Both the position numbers and the translations under genes were made by a program. From Spirosoma fluviale (GTDB taxonomy: Bacteria; Bacteroidota; Bacteroidia; Cytophagales; Spirosomataceae), in NCBI GenBank assembly GCA_945901025.1, contig CAMDJW010000002.1:264004-328003 (forward strand): a stretch of 64,000 nucleotides of DNA. The letters run 5' to 3'. Under the pieces are notes generated by a model. The model had not been told where the DNA came from. It saw only the letters and a list, made by a program, of their open reading frames with translations, and ran no database searches. Position 1 is the first letter of the stretch, and each line of letters begins with the position of its first letter. Of the stretch, positions 5,229-21,670 are shown in pieces.

Positions 5229-5417
5229 AGTGTTAGGCGTTTTTGGGTTAGAATATATACCTATTTCAAATATGTTACCCAGATTACCTATTAAATTGTA
5301 CAATAATATGAATTTTAATAACTATACTGATTTTCATTTTGCCTATAACGCATTTTAATATCCTGTAAGTTGATACATGTCATTTAACGACATATTTGAA
5401 TTTAAATAATTACAAAA

Positions 5418-14401: not shown

Positions 14402-14533
14402 GGAATTTATTTGTAATGAGTTGAACAAATTAAATAAGTAATTTAAAAAATCTTCTTTCAGGGATGGCAAAGAAATTACACTTAGTTAACAAATCTTTTT
14501 TTTCTCTTTACTACCTTGCAGCTTAAACACATT

Positions 14534-16978
14534 AAAATGAAATTATCTACTCCTATTAACCTACTCATTTGCCTATTCATTCCTTTTTTAGGAATTAGTC
14601 AATCGAAATCTCTCGCGGGCCAATTAGCCTCCAAACGAGTGACCTTACCAAATAGCTGGAAGCTTTCCCCACATGGAAAATCGGTGTCTTTGGGTGACCT
14701 GCCTCTCAACCTAGTCGTGTCGCCCAATAAATTGTACATGGTGGCAACCAACAATGGACAGAGTATTCAAAGTCTCCAATTATTTAATGTAAAAAAAGGT
14801 GAGATTGTCGACAGCAAAGTCATTCCGAAATCTTGGTACGGACTAAAAATTGCTGCTGACAACAAAACGATTTATGCCTCAGGGGGAAATGATAATGTCA
14901 TTTTACACTTTGAGATAGACCAAGATAAACTCGTTGACAAAGGAACCATCGCTTTAAGTAATATCCCTAAAGACAATATATCGCCGGCCGGAATTGATTT
15001 AGATGATGCAACGGGTATTCTTTATGTCGTTACGAAGGAAAACAATAAACTCTATTTAGTCGATACTCGCCAACAAAAAGTTCAGGAATCCTTCGCGCTA
15101 CCTGCGGAAGGATACACGTGTCTTTTGGATAAATCAAAAGGGATTCTTTATATTTCTGTTTGGGGTGGACGCCAAATTTTACCCTTTGACATAAAAACTA
15201 AACAATTCCAAAAAGCGATTCAAGTAGGTGATCATCCGAACGAAATGGTTTTGACAAAGAATGGAAAAACCCTTTTTGTGGCCAACGCAAACGACAACTC
15301 TGTTTCGGTCATTGATCTTGAAAAAGGAAAAGAAATTGAAGTTTTAAATGCTGCTTTATTTCCAAATTCATTAGAAGGCTCATCCACGAACGGTATCGCT
15401 CTTTCCGAAGACGAGGAAAAATTATACATCGCAAATGCCGATAACAATTGCTTAGCCGTTTTTGAAGTGGAAGATTTAGGCAAATCAAAATCCTTAGGAT
15501 TCATTCCAGTCGGTTGGTACCCGACCCAAGTAAAAGTCGTTAACGGGATGGTTTATGTAGCCAATGGAAAAGGGTTTTCCTCTTTTGCCAATCCAAAAGG
15601 ACCTAACCCAGTCGCTAAAACACAAACCGTTACCTTTCAAAAATCAGATAATAATCGCGCCGTCCGAAATGAATACATCGGTGGATTAATGAAAGGGACG
15701 ATGTCCATTTTCCCAGAGCCTTCAGCCGCTGATATGGCTATCTTATCCAAAGCTGTTTACCAAAATACGCCATATACCAAAGCGGGAGAAATGAACGCAA
15801 AAGGGGAAAAAGGAAATCCAATTCCCATGAAAGTGGGTGACAAGTCGCCTATCAAATATGTCTTTTATATCCTGAAGGAAAATAGGACTTATGACCAGGT
15901 TTTAGCAGATGTAAAGGGAGGAAATGGCGATACTACTTTGTTATTATTTGGCGAAAAATACACGCCTAACCAACATAAACTTGTCAAGGATTTTGTTCTT
16001 TTGGATAACTTTTATGTGGATGGTGAAGTAAGTTCTGATGGGCACAATTGGTCTACATCGGCTCATGCCACAGATTATTTAGAAAAAACATGGCCGACTT
16101 CCTATGGCGGCCGTGGAGGAAAATACGATGGCGAGGGAAATCGCGAAATCGCTAATCCTAAAAATGGTTTTATCTGGGATTACTGCAAGAGGGCTGGGGT
16201 CAGTTATCGGACTTATGGTGAATTTGCAGATGACTTTAAACCGAACATCCCATCTATCGCGGGACATTTTTGCACGTATTTCCCTTCGTTTGACCAAAAT
16301 ATTATGGACACGTTAAGGTTTAACCGTTGGCGAAAAGACTTCGATTCCTTATTAGTCAAAGGTCAAGTGCCGCACTTTAATTCATTGCGTTTCCCAAATG
16401 ACCATACCGAAGGACAGAAAATTGGTGCAAAAACCCCTTATGCTTACGTTGCCGACAATGACTATGCCATTGGATTGTTTGTCGAGCACCTTTCCAAGTC
16501 TCCTATTTGGAAAGAAACGGCCATTTTTATTATCGAAGATGACGCACAAAACGGTTCCGATCACGTAGACGCACACCGTACAACCGCTTATGTAGCGGGA
16601 GGATTTGTAAAAAGAGGTTTTGTGGACCACACTCCTTATTCTACCTCCTCGATGTTACGAACGATGGAATTAATTTTAGGTTTGCCTCCAATGAGTCAAT
16701 ATGACGCATCCGCCACACCGATGTTTAGAAGTTTTTCTTCTAAAGCCACATTAACTCCTTTTAATCATATTTTACCAAAAGTAGATCTCTTTGAAAAAAA
16801 TACCAAGGAGAATGCGAGTTCTCGGTTAAGCGAAAAGTTTGATTTCTCTAAAGAAGATTCCGCTCCAGATTTAGAGCTTAATCAGGTTATTTGGAAAGCT
16901 GTCAGAGGGGAAGATTCCGAAATGCCGGCACCAAGAAGAGCTGCGTTGTTGAACACAGTAGAAGAAGATGAAGATTAA
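14534..16978 (+). CDS. YncE-like beta-propeller / phosphoesterase (alkaline phosphatase superfamily) fusion
   Basis: Propeller repeats (SVIDLEKGKEI...NGIALSEDEEKLYIANADNNCLAVF) then YVFYILKENRTYDQVLAD...SSDGHNWSTSAHATDYLEKTWP; probable start MKLSTPINLL. Confidence 0.87.
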   Translation, partial: KMKLSTPINLLICLFIPFLGISQSKSLAGQLASKRVTLPNSWKLSPHGKSVSLGDLPLNLVVSPNKLYMVATNNGQSIQSLQLFNVKKGEIVDSKVIPKSWYGLKIAADNKTIYASGGNDNVILHFEIDQDKLVDKGTIALSNIPKDNISPAGIDLDDATGILYVVTKENNKLYLVDTRQQKVQESFALPAEGYTCLLDKSKGILYISVWGGRQILPFDIKTKQFQKAIQVGDHPNEMVLTKNGKTLFVANANDNSVSVIDLEKGKEIEVLNAALFPNSLEGSSTNGIALSEDEEKLYIANADNNCLAVFEVEDLGKSKSLGFIPVGWYPTQVKVVNGMVYVANGKGFSSFANPKGPNPVAKTQTVTFQKSDNNRAVRNEYIGGLMKGTMSIFPEPSAADMAILSKAVYQNTPYTKAGEMNAKGEKGNPIPMKVGDKSPIKYVFYILKENRTYDQVLADVKGGNGDTTLLLFGEKYTPNQHKLVKDFVLLDNFYVDGEVSSDGHNWSTSAHATDYLEKTWPTSYGGRGGKYDGEGNREIANPKNGFIWDYCKRAGVSYRTYGEFADDFKPNIPSIAGHFCTYFPSFDQNIMDTLRFNRWRKDFDSLLVKGQVPHFNSLRFPNDHTEGQKIGAKTPYAYVADNDYAIGLFVEHLSKSPIWKETAIFIIEDDAQNGSDHVDAHRTTAYVAGGFVKRGFVDHTPYSTSSMLRTMELILGLPPMSQYDASATPMFRSFSSKATLTPFNHILPKVDLFEKNTKENASSRLSEKFDFSKEDSAPDLELNQVIWKAVRGEDSEMPAPRRAALLNTVEEDED

Positions 16979-19073
16979 CTCTAATTTGAATATTGATTTT
17001 TTTAGGTATGTCCTAAGCTTTACTAACTTTTCAAAAGTTAGTAAAGCTAAAGGACATAAAAAATGGCTCATTTTTATTTTATCAGTTAATTGGATTACTC
17101 CATTTGTGAGTTTTGGACAGATAAATAATCCCGACACCCTAGCCAATGTTGTTGTTAGTGCTAGTAGGCAACAAATTTCAGCTTTAAAAACTCCCTATTC
17201 CGTTAGTGTGTTCACGCACAAAGAAATTAATCATTTGGCACCTCGTGCCACTCCAGATATGCTTTCGAATATCCCAGGAGTCTTCATTCAAAAAACGAAT
17301 TTAGGAGGTGGTTCTGCATTTGTCAGGGGCTTAACAGGGAATCAAACGCTACTCATTATCGACGGAATTCGATTTAATAATTCCACCTTTCGTTATGGCC
17401 CCAATCAATACCTTAATACCATAGATCCATCCATTATATCCAAAATAGAATTGTTAAAAGGAAGCGGATCCGTCCAATATGGATCAGATGCATTAACGGG
17501 TATCGTCAATTTCTTCACGCTTCAACCTGAATTTGCTGCTCAAAAAACCTTTGGGGGCCAATTGTCAGCGCGAATCGCCACACAAAGAATGGAGCTGAGC
17601 GAGCAGGTAAAAATGAGTTATGCCTCAGAAAATACGGGTATCATTTTGGTGGGCGCTAATAAAAAATTTGGTGATATAGTAAGAGGGGGTGGTTTAGGGT
17701 TGCAAGGCCCAACAGGTTATAATGAGTGGGATTTTTTTGGCAAAATTCGACAAAAAGTTTCAAAAACATGGGTTTTGGAAGGCCTGATTCAAACCACTCA
17801 GCAAACCCAAGTCCCCGTTTTTCATAAAATCAAATTGGAAAATTTCAAAATCAATGAAATGGATTTGCAAAAATTCCAAAGAAGCTATTTAAAAGCTATT
17901 GGTCAATACGAAAATCCCATTTTTAAAAAAATCGAGCTTTCCATATCCCAACAAACCAGTATCGAACAAAGAAAACTTCAAAAAAATGCATCTTCAACTC
18001 TTCGTGCAGAAAGAGACCTAGTGAATACGGTTGGAATTTTGGCCGATATACAAAGTCAATTTTCTCCAAAATGGTCCGCTCATAGTGGCATCGATTATTT
18101 TAATGACCGGATAAATAGTACCAGGGAGGATATTAATTTAACAAGTAATTTGATCAAACCCTTAAGGGGACTTTACCCAAATAATGCTGGATATCAATAC
18201 CAATCCGTCTATTCCATCCATCATTTAGACTTCAATGCATGGCAAGTGGAAACCGGTTTGCGCTTTCACCAAAACGTGGCTAGTTTGCCTGATACCACAC
18301 TGGGTTTATCGAAGGTAAAATCAAGTGCTTTAGTCTATTCATTAGGAATAGCCCGCGCTATCACTTCAGGAATCTCCGTCTATGTAAATACAAGTTCAGG
18401 GTTTAGGGCGCCAAATATGGACGATTTGGGTAGTCTGGGTATTGTAGATTTCAGGTATGAGCTACCTGCTTTTGATCTAAAGCCCGAATATTCTCAAAAT
18501 TATGAGATGGGAATCAAAATTTCAAAAGCTGCCTTTTTTCAGGAATTTACCCTTTTCCAAACCGAATTGGAAAATTTAATCACCCGTATAAAAACATCCA
18601 ATGTCATTCAGGGCTATTCAGTGTACGAAAAAAGAAATGTGGATCAAGCATTTTTACGAGGAGCAGAATGGAGTGGCCGATTTGATCTTTCAAATTCCTT
18701 TTCTACCAAAGCTAATATTTCCTACGTCTATGGCCAGAGCGTAACATTAAACGAACCCATGCGGCGCATACCTCCGTTGCATGGTGGCTTTAACCTAAGC
18801 TATTCAAGAAAAAAACTGTTTTTAAATTCTGAACTTTTATTTGCCGCTACTCAAAACAGGTTAAGTGCAGGAGATAAAGCAGATAATCGAATGAATCCCT
18901 CAGGAACTCCTGGGTGGGCAATAATCAATGTTCAGGCCAATTACCTATTTAATTCTCACTTTAGCATTTCTTTACAAGCTCAAAATATTGGCGATGTCGA
19001 TTACCGCATGCATGGATCTGGCATCAATGGTGTAGGAAGAAGTTTATGGGGTCAAATTCACTTGAAATTTTAA
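16968..19073 (+). CDS. TonB-dependent receptor
   Basis: Plug LKTPYSVSVFTHKEINHLAPRATPDMLSNIPGVFIQ...GGGSAFVRGLTGNQTLLIIDGIR and beta-barrel C-terminus ending in F. Confidence 0.92.
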   Translation: MKINSNLNIDFFRYVLSFTNFSKVSKAKGHKKWLIFILSVNWITPFVSFGQINNPDTLANVVVSASRQQISALKTPYSVSVFTHKEINHLAPRATPDMLSNIPGVFIQKTNLGGGSAFVRGLTGNQTLLIIDGIRFNNSTFRYGPNQYLNTIDPSIISKIELLKGSGSVQYGSDALTGIVNFFTLQPEFAAQKTFGGQLSARIATQRMELSEQVKMSYASENTGIILVGANKKFGDIVRGGGLGLQGPTGYNEWDFFGKIRQKVSKTWVLEGLIQTTQQTQVPVFHKIKLENFKINEMDLQKFQRSYLKAIGQYENPIFKKIELSISQQTSIEQRKLQKNASSTLRAERDLVNTVGILADIQSQFSPKWSAHSGIDYFNDRINSTREDINLTSNLIKPLRGLYPNNAGYQYQSVYSIHHLDFNAWQVETGLRFHQNVASLPDTTLGLSKVKSSALVYSLGIARAITSGISVYVNTSSGFRAPNMDDLGSLGIVDFRYELPAFDLKPEYSQNYEMGIKISKAAFFQEFTLFQTELENLITRIKTSNVIQGYSVYEKRNVDQAFLRGAEWSGRFDLSNSFSTKANISYVYGQSVTLNEPMRRIPPLHGGFNLSYSRKKLFLNSELLFAATQNRLSAGDKADNRMNPSGTPGWAIINVQANYLFNSHFSISLQAQNIGDVDYRMHGSGINGVGRSLWGQIHLKF
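17007..17092 (+). repeat. Copy 1 of 86-nt hairpin-bearing element
   Basis: TATGTCCT-A-AGCTTTACTAACTTTT-C-AAAAGTTAGTAAAGCT-AA-AGGACATA, then AAAAATGGCTC...TTTTATCAGTTAATTG; same sequence +2070 nt downstream with 9 mismatches and no indels. Confidence 0.92.
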
Positions 19074-19076
19074 TTC

Positions 19077-19162
19077 TATATCCTAAGCTTTACTAACTTT
19101 TGAAAAGTTAGTAAAGCTAAAGGATATAAAAAATGGCTCCCAATGCTTTTATCAGTTAATTG
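19077..19162 (+). repeat. Copy 2 of 86-nt hairpin-bearing element
   Basis: TATATCCT-A-AGCTTTACTAACTTTT-G-AAAAGTTAGTAAAGCT-AA-AGGATATA, then AAAAATGGCTC...TTTTATCAGTTAATTG; starts 3 nt after the receptor stop codon. Confidence 0.92.
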
Positions 19163-19213
19163 AATGTAAGAAATATTGATTAAACATTTTGGCTATTAAT
19201 TTGTTACCTGAGC

Positions 19214-21670
19214 ATGAAAAAACTTCAACTTTTATTCCTTTTTTCCCTTTTACTGACCATCAATCATGTTGGTTGGGCACAATCAAATGGTAGAATTTCA
19301 GGAAAAATCGTAGATAAATTTACTCAAAAGCCTATTGAAGGAGTTAATGTAAATTTAGAATCGACCACTAAAATTGGACAAACCGATAGCCTCGGTAAAT
19401 TTAGAATCACTGGAATAAACTTCAAATCATATAATTTGGTGCTTTCCATGATTGGATATAAAAAGCAAATGCTTTTCAATATCGTAGTCAGTGCAGGGAA
19501 CGAAAACTTTTTCAATATAGAATTAGAGCCGGCCAACAATGAGTTAAATGAAGTCATTGTCACTCAAAGCCGAAAAACCGCTAAAGTGGCCACACTTGAA
19601 TCTCCCCTTAGTGTTCAGAGATTGACAACCGAGGAAATAAAAAGTAATCCAGGAGGAAATTTTGATATAAGTAAAGCAATTCAAGCGCTTCCAGGTGTGG
19701 GGGGTGGCGCTCAAGGTGGAGGCTTCAGAAATGATATCATTATTCGTGGTGGAGGCCCCAATGAAAATGTTTATTACCTAGATGGAATTGAAATCCCAGT
19801 ACTAAATCACTTTCAAACTCAGGGTTCCAGCGGCGGACCTCAAGGAATGTTAAATGTTTCCTTTATTGAAGATGTTAAATTGAGCTCGTCGGCTTTTGAT
19901 GCTCGGTATGATAATGCCCTAAGTTCCGTTTTTCAGTTTCGCCAAAGAACCGGGAACCCCAATAAATTTCAAGGAAATGTTCGTTTAAGTGCTACTGAAT
20001 TCGCCTTAACTTCAGAAGGTCCCTTAGCTAAAAATGGCAAAACAACTTTTTTGGCATCCGCGAGACGCTCGTATTTGCAGTTCCTTTTCCAAGCTTTAGA
20101 CATCCCCATAAGACCTAATTTTTGGGATTTCCAAACCAAAATCACGCATCAAATTGACAGCAAAACCTCCCTTTCATTTATGGCTTTGGGGGCCATTGAT
20201 GACTTTAGTTTCTCCACCATCAAAAAAGAAACTCCTGAAAAACTATACGTCTATAATTCAAATCCCATCATCAACCAATGGAATTATACAGCAGGGTTAA
20301 GTTTAAAAAGATTGACGGAGAACGGATATTTTAATTTGGCCATTAGTCGGAATGCTTTTGATAATGATATCAGAAAATACGAAGACAACCAGATAAAAGA
20401 TCCAAATCTGGTTAATTTATCCCTTCAGTCGAGAGAAACAGAAAACAAATTGCGATTCGATTTTAATACCAATCAAAATGGGTGGAAAATTAGTTATGGA
20501 TTGTCGGCCCAAATCGTTGACTTCACAAACAATACCCGCACTGTGATTCGGAAAAAATTAAGCGATGCGGTAGGAAATATCATTCAACCTGAACTTAAAT
20601 ATACGTTTAGTAGCCCATTAGGGACATTTACAAAATATGGGGCTTTTGGCCAGGTGAGTAAAGCATTTTTTGATACCCGCCTAGGCATCAGTGCAGGTTT
20701 GAGAACCGACATGAATTCATTTACGGAAGAAGGCAGCAATCCTTTACAAACCTTATCCCCTAGGTTATCTTTAAGTTATGTTTTATCCGACAAATGGACT
20801 TTAAATGGATCCATAGGCCGCTATTATAAATTAGCGCCTTACACTATTTTAGGTTTTGCCGATAATAATGGAAAATTGGTCAATAAAAATGCCAAATACC
20901 AAGCGAGTGATCATTACGTGGCGGGACTTGAATATTTAGTCAATGATGGTTTAAGATTTACCGCGGAAGCATTTGTAAAAAATTATAGCCAAGTGCCTAT
21001 TTCGATCAGCAAAGGGATTTCATTGGCCAATTTAGGAGGCGATTTTAACGTGCTTGGCAATGAACCCGTGACCACCACAGGGAAAGGCGAGGCCTATGGA
21101 TTTGAATTTTTTGCTCAAAAGAAACTGACGGATAAATTTTTTGGCATACTTTCCTATACCTATTACAACAGCTCATATAGTGGATTAGATGGCGTTTTAA
21201 AACCAAGTAGTTGGGATAACAGACACTTACTTAGCCTTTCATGGGGATATAAATTTCCTCGTAACTGGGAACTCGGTTTAAGATTCAGATACCAAGGAGG
21301 AGCGCCTTATACACCTTTTGACAACATTGCTTCCAAAGCTAATTTTATGACACAGGGCTCGGGGATTTTTGATTATGCTCAACTAAACACACGTAGATTA
21401 AGAAGTTTCCATTCGAGTGATGTGCGAATTGACAAGAAATACAATTTAAAATCGACGACCATTGATTTATTTCTAGATGTGACCAATTGGTATATCGCGG
21501 CAGCCGACGCAGTTCCCTATTACGCATTTAAAAGAACAGATGATAATAAGGGTTTTGCAACGACGAACGGTCAACCGATTCAAACTAATGGGAGCAATGG
21601 CATACCGGTTTTATTGAATAATGACAAGCCATCTGTCACCCCTACGATTGGTTTTATTGTGGAGTTTTAG
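19214..21670 (+). CDS. TonB-dependent receptor with carboxypeptidase-regulatory-like N-terminal domain
   Basis: GRISGKIVDKFTQKPIEGVNVNLEST...; NDIIIRGGGPNENVYYLDGIEIP plug. Confidence 0.92.
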   Translation: MKKLQLLFLFSLLLTINHVGWAQSNGRISGKIVDKFTQKPIEGVNVNLESTTKIGQTDSLGKFRITGINFKSYNLVLSMIGYKKQMLFNIVVSAGNENFFNIELEPANNELNEVIVTQSRKTAKVATLESPLSVQRLTTEEIKSNPGGNFDISKAIQALPGVGGGAQGGGFRNDIIIRGGGPNENVYYLDGIEIPVLNHFQTQGSSGGPQGMLNVSFIEDVKLSSSAFDARYDNALSSVFQFRQRTGNPNKFQGNVRLSATEFALTSEGPLAKNGKTTFLASARRSYLQFLFQALDIPIRPNFWDFQTKITHQIDSKTSLSFMALGAIDDFSFSTIKKETPEKLYVYNSNPIINQWNYTAGLSLKRLTENGYFNLAISRNAFDNDIRKYEDNQIKDPNLVNLSLQSRETENKLRFDFNTNQNGWKISYGLSAQIVDFTNNTRTVIRKKLSDAVGNIIQPELKYTFSSPLGTFTKYGAFGQVSKAFFDTRLGISAGLRTDMNSFTEEGSNPLQTLSPRLSLSYVLSDKWTLNGSIGRYYKLAPYTILGFADNNGKLVNKNAKYQASDHYVAGLEYLVNDGLRFTAEAFVKNYSQVPISISKGISLANLGGDFNVLGNEPVTTTGKGEAYGFEFFAQKKLTDKFFGILSYTYYNSSYSGLDGVLKPSSWDNRHLLSLSWGYKFPRNWELGLRFRYQGGAPYTPFDNIASKANFMTQGSGIFDYAQLNTRRLRSFHSSDVRIDKKYNLKSTTIDLFLDVTNWYIAAADAVPYYAFKRTDDNKGFATTNGQPIQTNGSNGIPVLLNNDKPSVTPTIGFIVEF

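Follow-up and report, generated by a model that had tools for sequence, protein, structure and literature searches.

The 86-nt hairpin repeat that lies on both sides of a TonB-dependent receptor gene in the window (the whole 64,000-nucleotide stretch of DNA that was analysed) very probably represents two members of a REP-type family, that is, of the short, non-autonomous palindromic repeats that belong to a RAYT (REP-associated tyrosine transposase), and the system as a whole is a REP/RAYT system of the type known from Bacteroidota, lacking the classical GTAG tag. The RAYT would be a single-copy domesticated relative of the IS200/IS605 HUH-tyrosine transposases, and its recognition unit would be a conserved 33-bp palindrome with 16-bp arms and one central base. 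At about half of the sites this core sits on a site-specific outer stem of 7–9 bp, and many copies have the motif AACTGAT/ATCAGTT 30–65 nt to one side.

The two copies in the window (17007-17092 and 19077-19162; Table 1) align without gaps at an offset of 2070 nt and differ at 9 of 86 positions (17010, 17032, 17055, 17070-17073, 17075 and 17076). In the predicted fold a 1x2 internal loop separates an outer stem of 8 bp from an inner stem of 16 bp; the z-scores are -6.8 and -5.5 against dinucleotide shuffles, none of which folded equally well. A G-C pair of the outer stem in copy 1 (17010/17055) is an A-T pair in copy 2 (19080/19125), and the two copies differ in the central base (17032), C against G. 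The original prediction had described this pair of copies, from their coordinates and offset to the nine differences, the paired change and the free centre, exactly to the base. It took the paired change as a sign of selection on structure or of independent copies of a structured family; the reading as independent copies of such a family is supported and the change is real, but the change is weak evidence for RNA structure, because the symmetry of perfect palindromes can also come from template-switch mutation or from recognition as single-stranded DNA. The compensatory change is compatible with recognition at the level of structure, and also with template-switch mutation that keeps palindromes perfect.

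Table 1. Features of the hairpin pair and of the neighbouring receptor genes in the window.
Feature	Position	Strand	Remarks
TonB-dependent receptor (heme/hemoglobin-type, NCBIfam similarity below cut-off)	16968..19073	+	codons ~14-42 are copy 1
Copy 1 outer stem, left arm TATGTCCT	17007..17014	+	first codons of the element-encoded peptide; TAT is codon 14 of the receptor ORF
Copy 1 core palindrome (REP), 33 bp, AGCTTTACTAACTTTTCAAAAGTTAGTAAAGCT	17016..17048	.	
Copy 1 unpaired bases	17015 and 17049-17050		
Copy 1 outer stem, right arm AGGACATA	17051..17058	+	
Copy 1 tail AAAAAATGGCTC...TTTTATCAGTTAATTGGAT	17059..17095	+	encodes the hydrophobic signal-peptide stretch KKWLIFILSVNW
ATCAGTT motif in copy 1 tail	17081-17087		common to other family copies
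Copy 2 outer stem, left arm TATATCCT	19077..19084	+	
Copy 2 core palindrome, 33 bp, AGCTTTACTAACTTTTGAAAAGTTAGTAAAGCT	19086..19118	.	intergenic, directly after the receptor stop codon
Copy 2 outer stem, right arm AGGATATA	19121..19128	+	
Copy 2 tail	19129..19165	+	homologous to the tail of copy 1; not coding at this site
Second outer-membrane receptor (CarboxypepD_reg + Plug)	19214..21670	+	downstream of copy 2, uninterrupted

The inner palindrome of these hairpins, AGCTTTACTAACTTTTnAAAAGTTAGTAAAGCT, belongs to a dispersed family. Its own genome holds about 20 copies (20 matches at no more than 3 mismatches) and 11 of the 38 genomes of the genus carry it, with copy counts that rest on MAGs of uneven completeness; the genomes sampled from 35 other genera of the family do not have it, and every one of the 72 loci returned by a scan of GTDB contigs lies in a MAG labelled Cytophagales, Cytophagaceae or Spirosoma. 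The outcome that had been allowed for at the start, two copies only with identity running on into their flanks, did not come about. When 108 copies are grouped by flank they fall into 25 site families, and at orthologous sites the core is retained amid drifting flanks, with a centre base that is free to vary. The copies mapped in the genome of origin (G000) all lie between genes, copy 1 excepted; they adjoin unrelated genes, in divergent, convergent and tandem contexts, and the consistent location upstream of outer-membrane genes that had been expected is not seen, most copies being away from receptor genes. A suggested role as a phase-variation site fits poorly with sites that hold their position across species and show no inverted state. 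Within the carrier clade, where sites are conserved across species, neither a new insertion nor an empty-to-filled site was seen; BLAST searches with the flanks for empty sites among the carriers gave 0 clean empty sites, and returned altered cores and one collapsed palindrome.

Two kinds of rearranged copy were noted in passing. Arrays of partial half-palindromes stand beside a full core at L219 (1501) and at L129 (~5300-5400), for example GTCAAATCTAA repeats and TAGCTTTACC repeats, and look as if half units had duplicated in tandem. The copy-2 locus has undergone natural palindrome deletions (L163 in G154, L157 in G187), with a collapse to TATATCCTAAGCTTTAGGATATA in one species and a deletion between short GCTTT repeats in another; at L158, L159 and L160 its core now reads AGCTTTAAAACTTTTCGAAAAGTTTTAAAGCT, the arms having been altered jointly (in L159 one arm is off by a base).

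A gene for a 197-aa RAYT (G000:C2:246701-247291) lies 34 kb from the hairpin pair and is bracketed by two copies of the palindrome. Its product resembles the NCBIfam family REP_Tyr_transpos (NF047646; E=2.6e-13, 50 bits, below the curated cut-off of 80) and, marginally, Pfam Y1_Tnp (22.2 bits, also below the curated cut-off), and the HUH histidines (NHxH) and the tyrosine motif YIHxNP (Y-x-x-NP) are invariant in 17 homologues. The best PDB match of its AlphaFold model (pLDDT 87) is 4er8, the E. coli RAYT with a bound REP hairpin (E=1e-7), and the next structural matches are the IS608 and ISDra2 transposases; by its similarity to NF047646, its invariant motifs and the match to 4er8 the protein is a Y1 HUH transposase of the RAYT type. 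Among the 11 genomes that bear the palindrome, 8 also have a RAYT of at least 89% identity, and among the 27 others 0 have one (raw counts that ignore kinship). Palindromes stand on both sides of the gene at the 7 loci of this lineage (A) that could be read whole, at 6 loci of a lineage B and at several of a lineage C. Of the roles first proposed, that of a non-autonomous mobile palindrome is thus the one borne out, by the ~20 dispersed copies, by a RAYT flanked with the same palindrome and by the co-occurrence of the two. Three carriers are without a detected RAYT: in G154 and G178 the locus is cleanly absent, the whole RAYT unit missing between its neighbours pirin and cysG, and in the third the locus is cut by a contig end. 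Many cores in these three genomes are shortened or changed, mostly in both arms together, which is suggestive, from few genomes, of RAYT-dependent upkeep of the core. As for a GTAG/GTGG guide, no common tetranucleotide was found at the palindrome foot across 98 copies. In several lineages (L201, L209, L202, L196 and L198) the stretch from the flanking palindrome to the start of the RAYT contains another short palindrome, TTATCAA...TTGATAA, which is possibly an operator or a second recognition site.

A perfect outer stem of 7-9 bp surrounds the core in 11 of the 25 site families. These stems vary in sequence by site yet pair (for flanks swapped between sites the mean is 0.4 and the maximum 4), and the unpaired bases at such sites usually total 3. 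Pairing of this site-specific kind might mean that existing 8-bp hairpins, such as terminators, received the 33-bp core in their loops, and that the stem is not part of the element, and removal of the core does leave palindromes such as CATACTGTTAACAGTATG. We regard this account, which concerns the outer stem only, as possible but rather unlikely, given the near-constant stem length and number of unpaired bases, the presence of the same stem and tail in copy 1, copy 2 and a third site, and palindrome families B and C, in which outer stems were sought and none found. The AACTGAT/ATCAGTT motif is present 30-65 nt from the core at 10 of 25 sites, and at 0-1 in zones farther out. At the third locus the same outer stem is followed by a diverged version of the tail of copies 1 and 2, and this tail, ATCAGTT included, is therefore part of the element unit.

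RAYT homologues of ~50% identity adjoin cysG in non-carrier genomes. RAYT B is flanked by a 33-bp palindrome of its own, AGATTTGACAACTTTTnAAAAGTTGTCAAATCT, which has 13-22 copies in exactly the six RAYT B genomes (6/6 vs 0/32 genomes, kinship ignored); lineage C, a second RAYT in the same six genomes, is flanked by the palindrome AACGCTGTCAAGGTTTnAAACCTTGACAGCGTT, present there in 41-52 copies. RAYTs B and C coexist in these genomes (G012, G041, G057, G070, G081 and G090; loci L211-L215 and L228-L240) and their palindromes are unrelated. A fourth set of orthologous RAYTs beside cysG (L194-L200, L202, L204 and L205) has no 33-bp palindrome nearby, and GC-rich terminator-like hairpins are found there. 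A RAYT profile search of the order gave matches in 64 of 195 genomes. Outside the genus, 39 of 68 RAYT loci have a perfect palindrome (arms of at least 11) within 500 bp; at 25 of the 68 a palindrome of exactly 33 bp is present, with many unrelated sequences, and 33 bp is by far the commonest length (48 of 90 palindromes). Sixteen palindrome sequence families have in common only A at position 1 (16/16), and mostly C9, A10 and T15; an internal hairpin with a stem of at least 4 bp is found in 69% of arms vs 16% of shuffled arms. Dispersal was checked for one of the families from outside the genus: its own two genomes hold 16 and 7 copies, a third holds 3 and seven others hold 0.

With moderate confidence we favour the general view that Bacteroidota RAYTs use a length ruler, namely perfect 33-bp palindromes (16+1+16) with an outermost A...T and usually CA at arm positions 9-10, of any sequence and with arms that are often mini-hairpins; that RAYT and palindrome have diverged together many times; and that exaptation has, in at least one case, turned a copy into the part of a TonB receptor gene that encodes the signal peptide. 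A fixed length of 33 bp would also suit an operator recognised by a nucleoid protein or a regulator of the host, of which the RAYT gene merely has two, and so would a core that is invariant at orthologous sites while its flanks drift and its centre base is free. Such an operator is nevertheless very unlikely, since each of the three RAYT lineages has a different palindrome, with a dispersal that follows that RAYT, RAYTs in other families of the order are flanked by unrelated 33-bp palindromes, and cores are altered where the RAYT has gone.

Nothing in the ORF annotation had seemed to explain the element, but copy 1 sits in frame within the TonB receptor ORF and encodes receptor residues ~14-42, the hydrophobic signal-peptide stretch included. 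The frame is open through copy 1 in 9 of 9 carrier genomes that have this receptor gene, the distance from start codon to element differs among the nine by whole codons only, and the encoded peptide, YVLSFTNFxKVSKAKGHKKWLLLLLSVNW, shows little variation; in G154 the altered core still keeps the receptor frame. The receptor orthologues of 13 non-carriers have no insert and a short ordinary signal peptide, and the start codon overlaps the upstream stop in the carriers and in several non-carriers. In the window, that stop is the end of a gene for a beta-propeller and phosphoesterase-domain protein (14516-16978) directly upstream. Because carriers read the element in frame and non-carriers have a short signal peptide without the insert, the element was, by sequence comparison, gained inside the signal-peptide region of the receptor, where it now supplies both the charged and the hydrophobic parts, and the receptor may be exported through this element-encoded signal.

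A cis-acting regulatory RNA of TonB receptor genes (an attenuator, a riboswitch-like leader or an mRNA stabiliser) had been among the first suggestions for the hairpin, and the strong predicted fold, the presence of a copy before each of two receptor genes and the two-sided change of a base pair in the outer stem would all be in keeping with it. It is highly improbable that the hairpin acts in this way: the neighbours of the ~20 copies are unrelated genes, in intergenic regions that may be divergent, convergent or tandem, receptor genes are not close to most copies, copy 1 is within a coding region, and two copies bracket a RAYT gene. Nor does any Rfam family match at threshold; the original prediction had left room for a known family, and an Rfam scan of the element gave only sub-threshold chance matches to miRNAs. 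That a local segmental duplication of the receptor 5' end alone made both copies is hardly credible, for although the outer stem and tail are common to copies 1 and 2, which have the same orientation at a distance of 2070 nt, it would explain at most the origin of copy 2, the core with related stem and tail occurs elsewhere in the genus, and as a full explanation it is contradicted by the dispersal of the copies. Two further candidates were dropped: an integron attC site, since no R'/R'' motifs and no integrase link were seen, and an intrinsic terminator, already doubted at the outset for want of a T-run, since the stem is AT-rich and the aligned copies have no consistent 3' T-run.

Returning to the REP-type element, we infer that the RAYT binds, cleaves and mobilises the palindrome and maintains its core. 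At the replication fork the palindrome would be extruded as a single-stranded hairpin and bound in that form by the RAYT, which in earlier times would have spread the unit, by copying or moving it, to new sites that are mostly intergenic, and would have kept the core sequence uniform; copy 1 would have landed in frame in the 5' end of the TonB receptor gene and been retained there. Points against this account are the RAYT scores below the NCBIfam and Pfam cut-offs, the lack of GTAG, the three carriers in which the RAYT was not found and the fact that no insertion event was seen among the carriers.

The system resembles the gammaproteobacterial REP/RAYT systems, or REPtrons (E. coli TnpA-REP, Stenotrophomonas; PMC2817692, PMC8266576), in its single-copy Y1 transposase gene flanked by inverted palindromic repeats, in its dispersed and mostly extragenic palindrome copies, and in the covariation of palindrome and RAYT between lineages, with an orthologous RAYT locus at which the palindromes have changed. 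It differs from them in having no GTAG/GTGG tetranucleotide, an AT-rich perfect 33-bp palindrome with a one-base centre where theirs is a looped or bulged hairpin of 20-40 nt, and tens rather than hundreds of copies. The main text of PMC6006769 describes a Bacteroidetes TnpA-Y1 subclass 2.6, or RAYT group 5, without GTAG, in which "atypical secondary structures" flank the gene and have copies elsewhere in the genome. Our RAYT agrees with that description in phylum, size (~180-200 aa), YIHxNP motif, SS motif, lack of GTAG and dispersed flanking structures; it departs from it in the middle residue of HuH (Y/F here, L/I/V in the published motif) and in its perfect 33-bp palindromes, the main text calling the structures weaker. 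Subclass 2.6 / RAYT group 5 is the most likely home of the system, placed by motifs that mostly, not fully, agree and by the main-text description in PMC6006769. In the open main texts of the literature we found no description of a 33-bp RAYT palindrome or of a REP-derived signal peptide. As details of a system whose kind is known, the rule of 33 bp and the exaptation for a signal peptide appear to be new.

The insertion into coding sequence is not new in kind, because in-frame REPs and Rickettsia palindromic elements are known (PMC3733652); as there, a short palindromic repeat lies in frame in a protein gene and adds ~20-30 residues. Here, unlike in those cases, it occupies the signal-peptide region of an outer-membrane receptor and the frame is kept in nine genomes, and, unlike the CGTC/RPE repeats, which have no cognate RAYT (PMC3733652), the repeat has an identifiable one. 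With IS200/IS605, whose subterminal hairpins are recognised as single-stranded DNA, the RAYT shares the HUH-Y1 fold; it differs in being single copy at a conserved locus beside cysG, with non-autonomous copies that far outnumber it. REP/RAYT systems occur widely but are little understood, and those tested depend on a GTAG tag. Recognition, as it seems here, by a tag-free perfect palindrome of fixed length would offer a clean way to ask how domesticated transposases choose their repeats, with many natural RAYT-palindrome pairs of different specificities on offer, and the receptor would be a case of a mobile-type repeat turned into the signal sequence of an exported protein.
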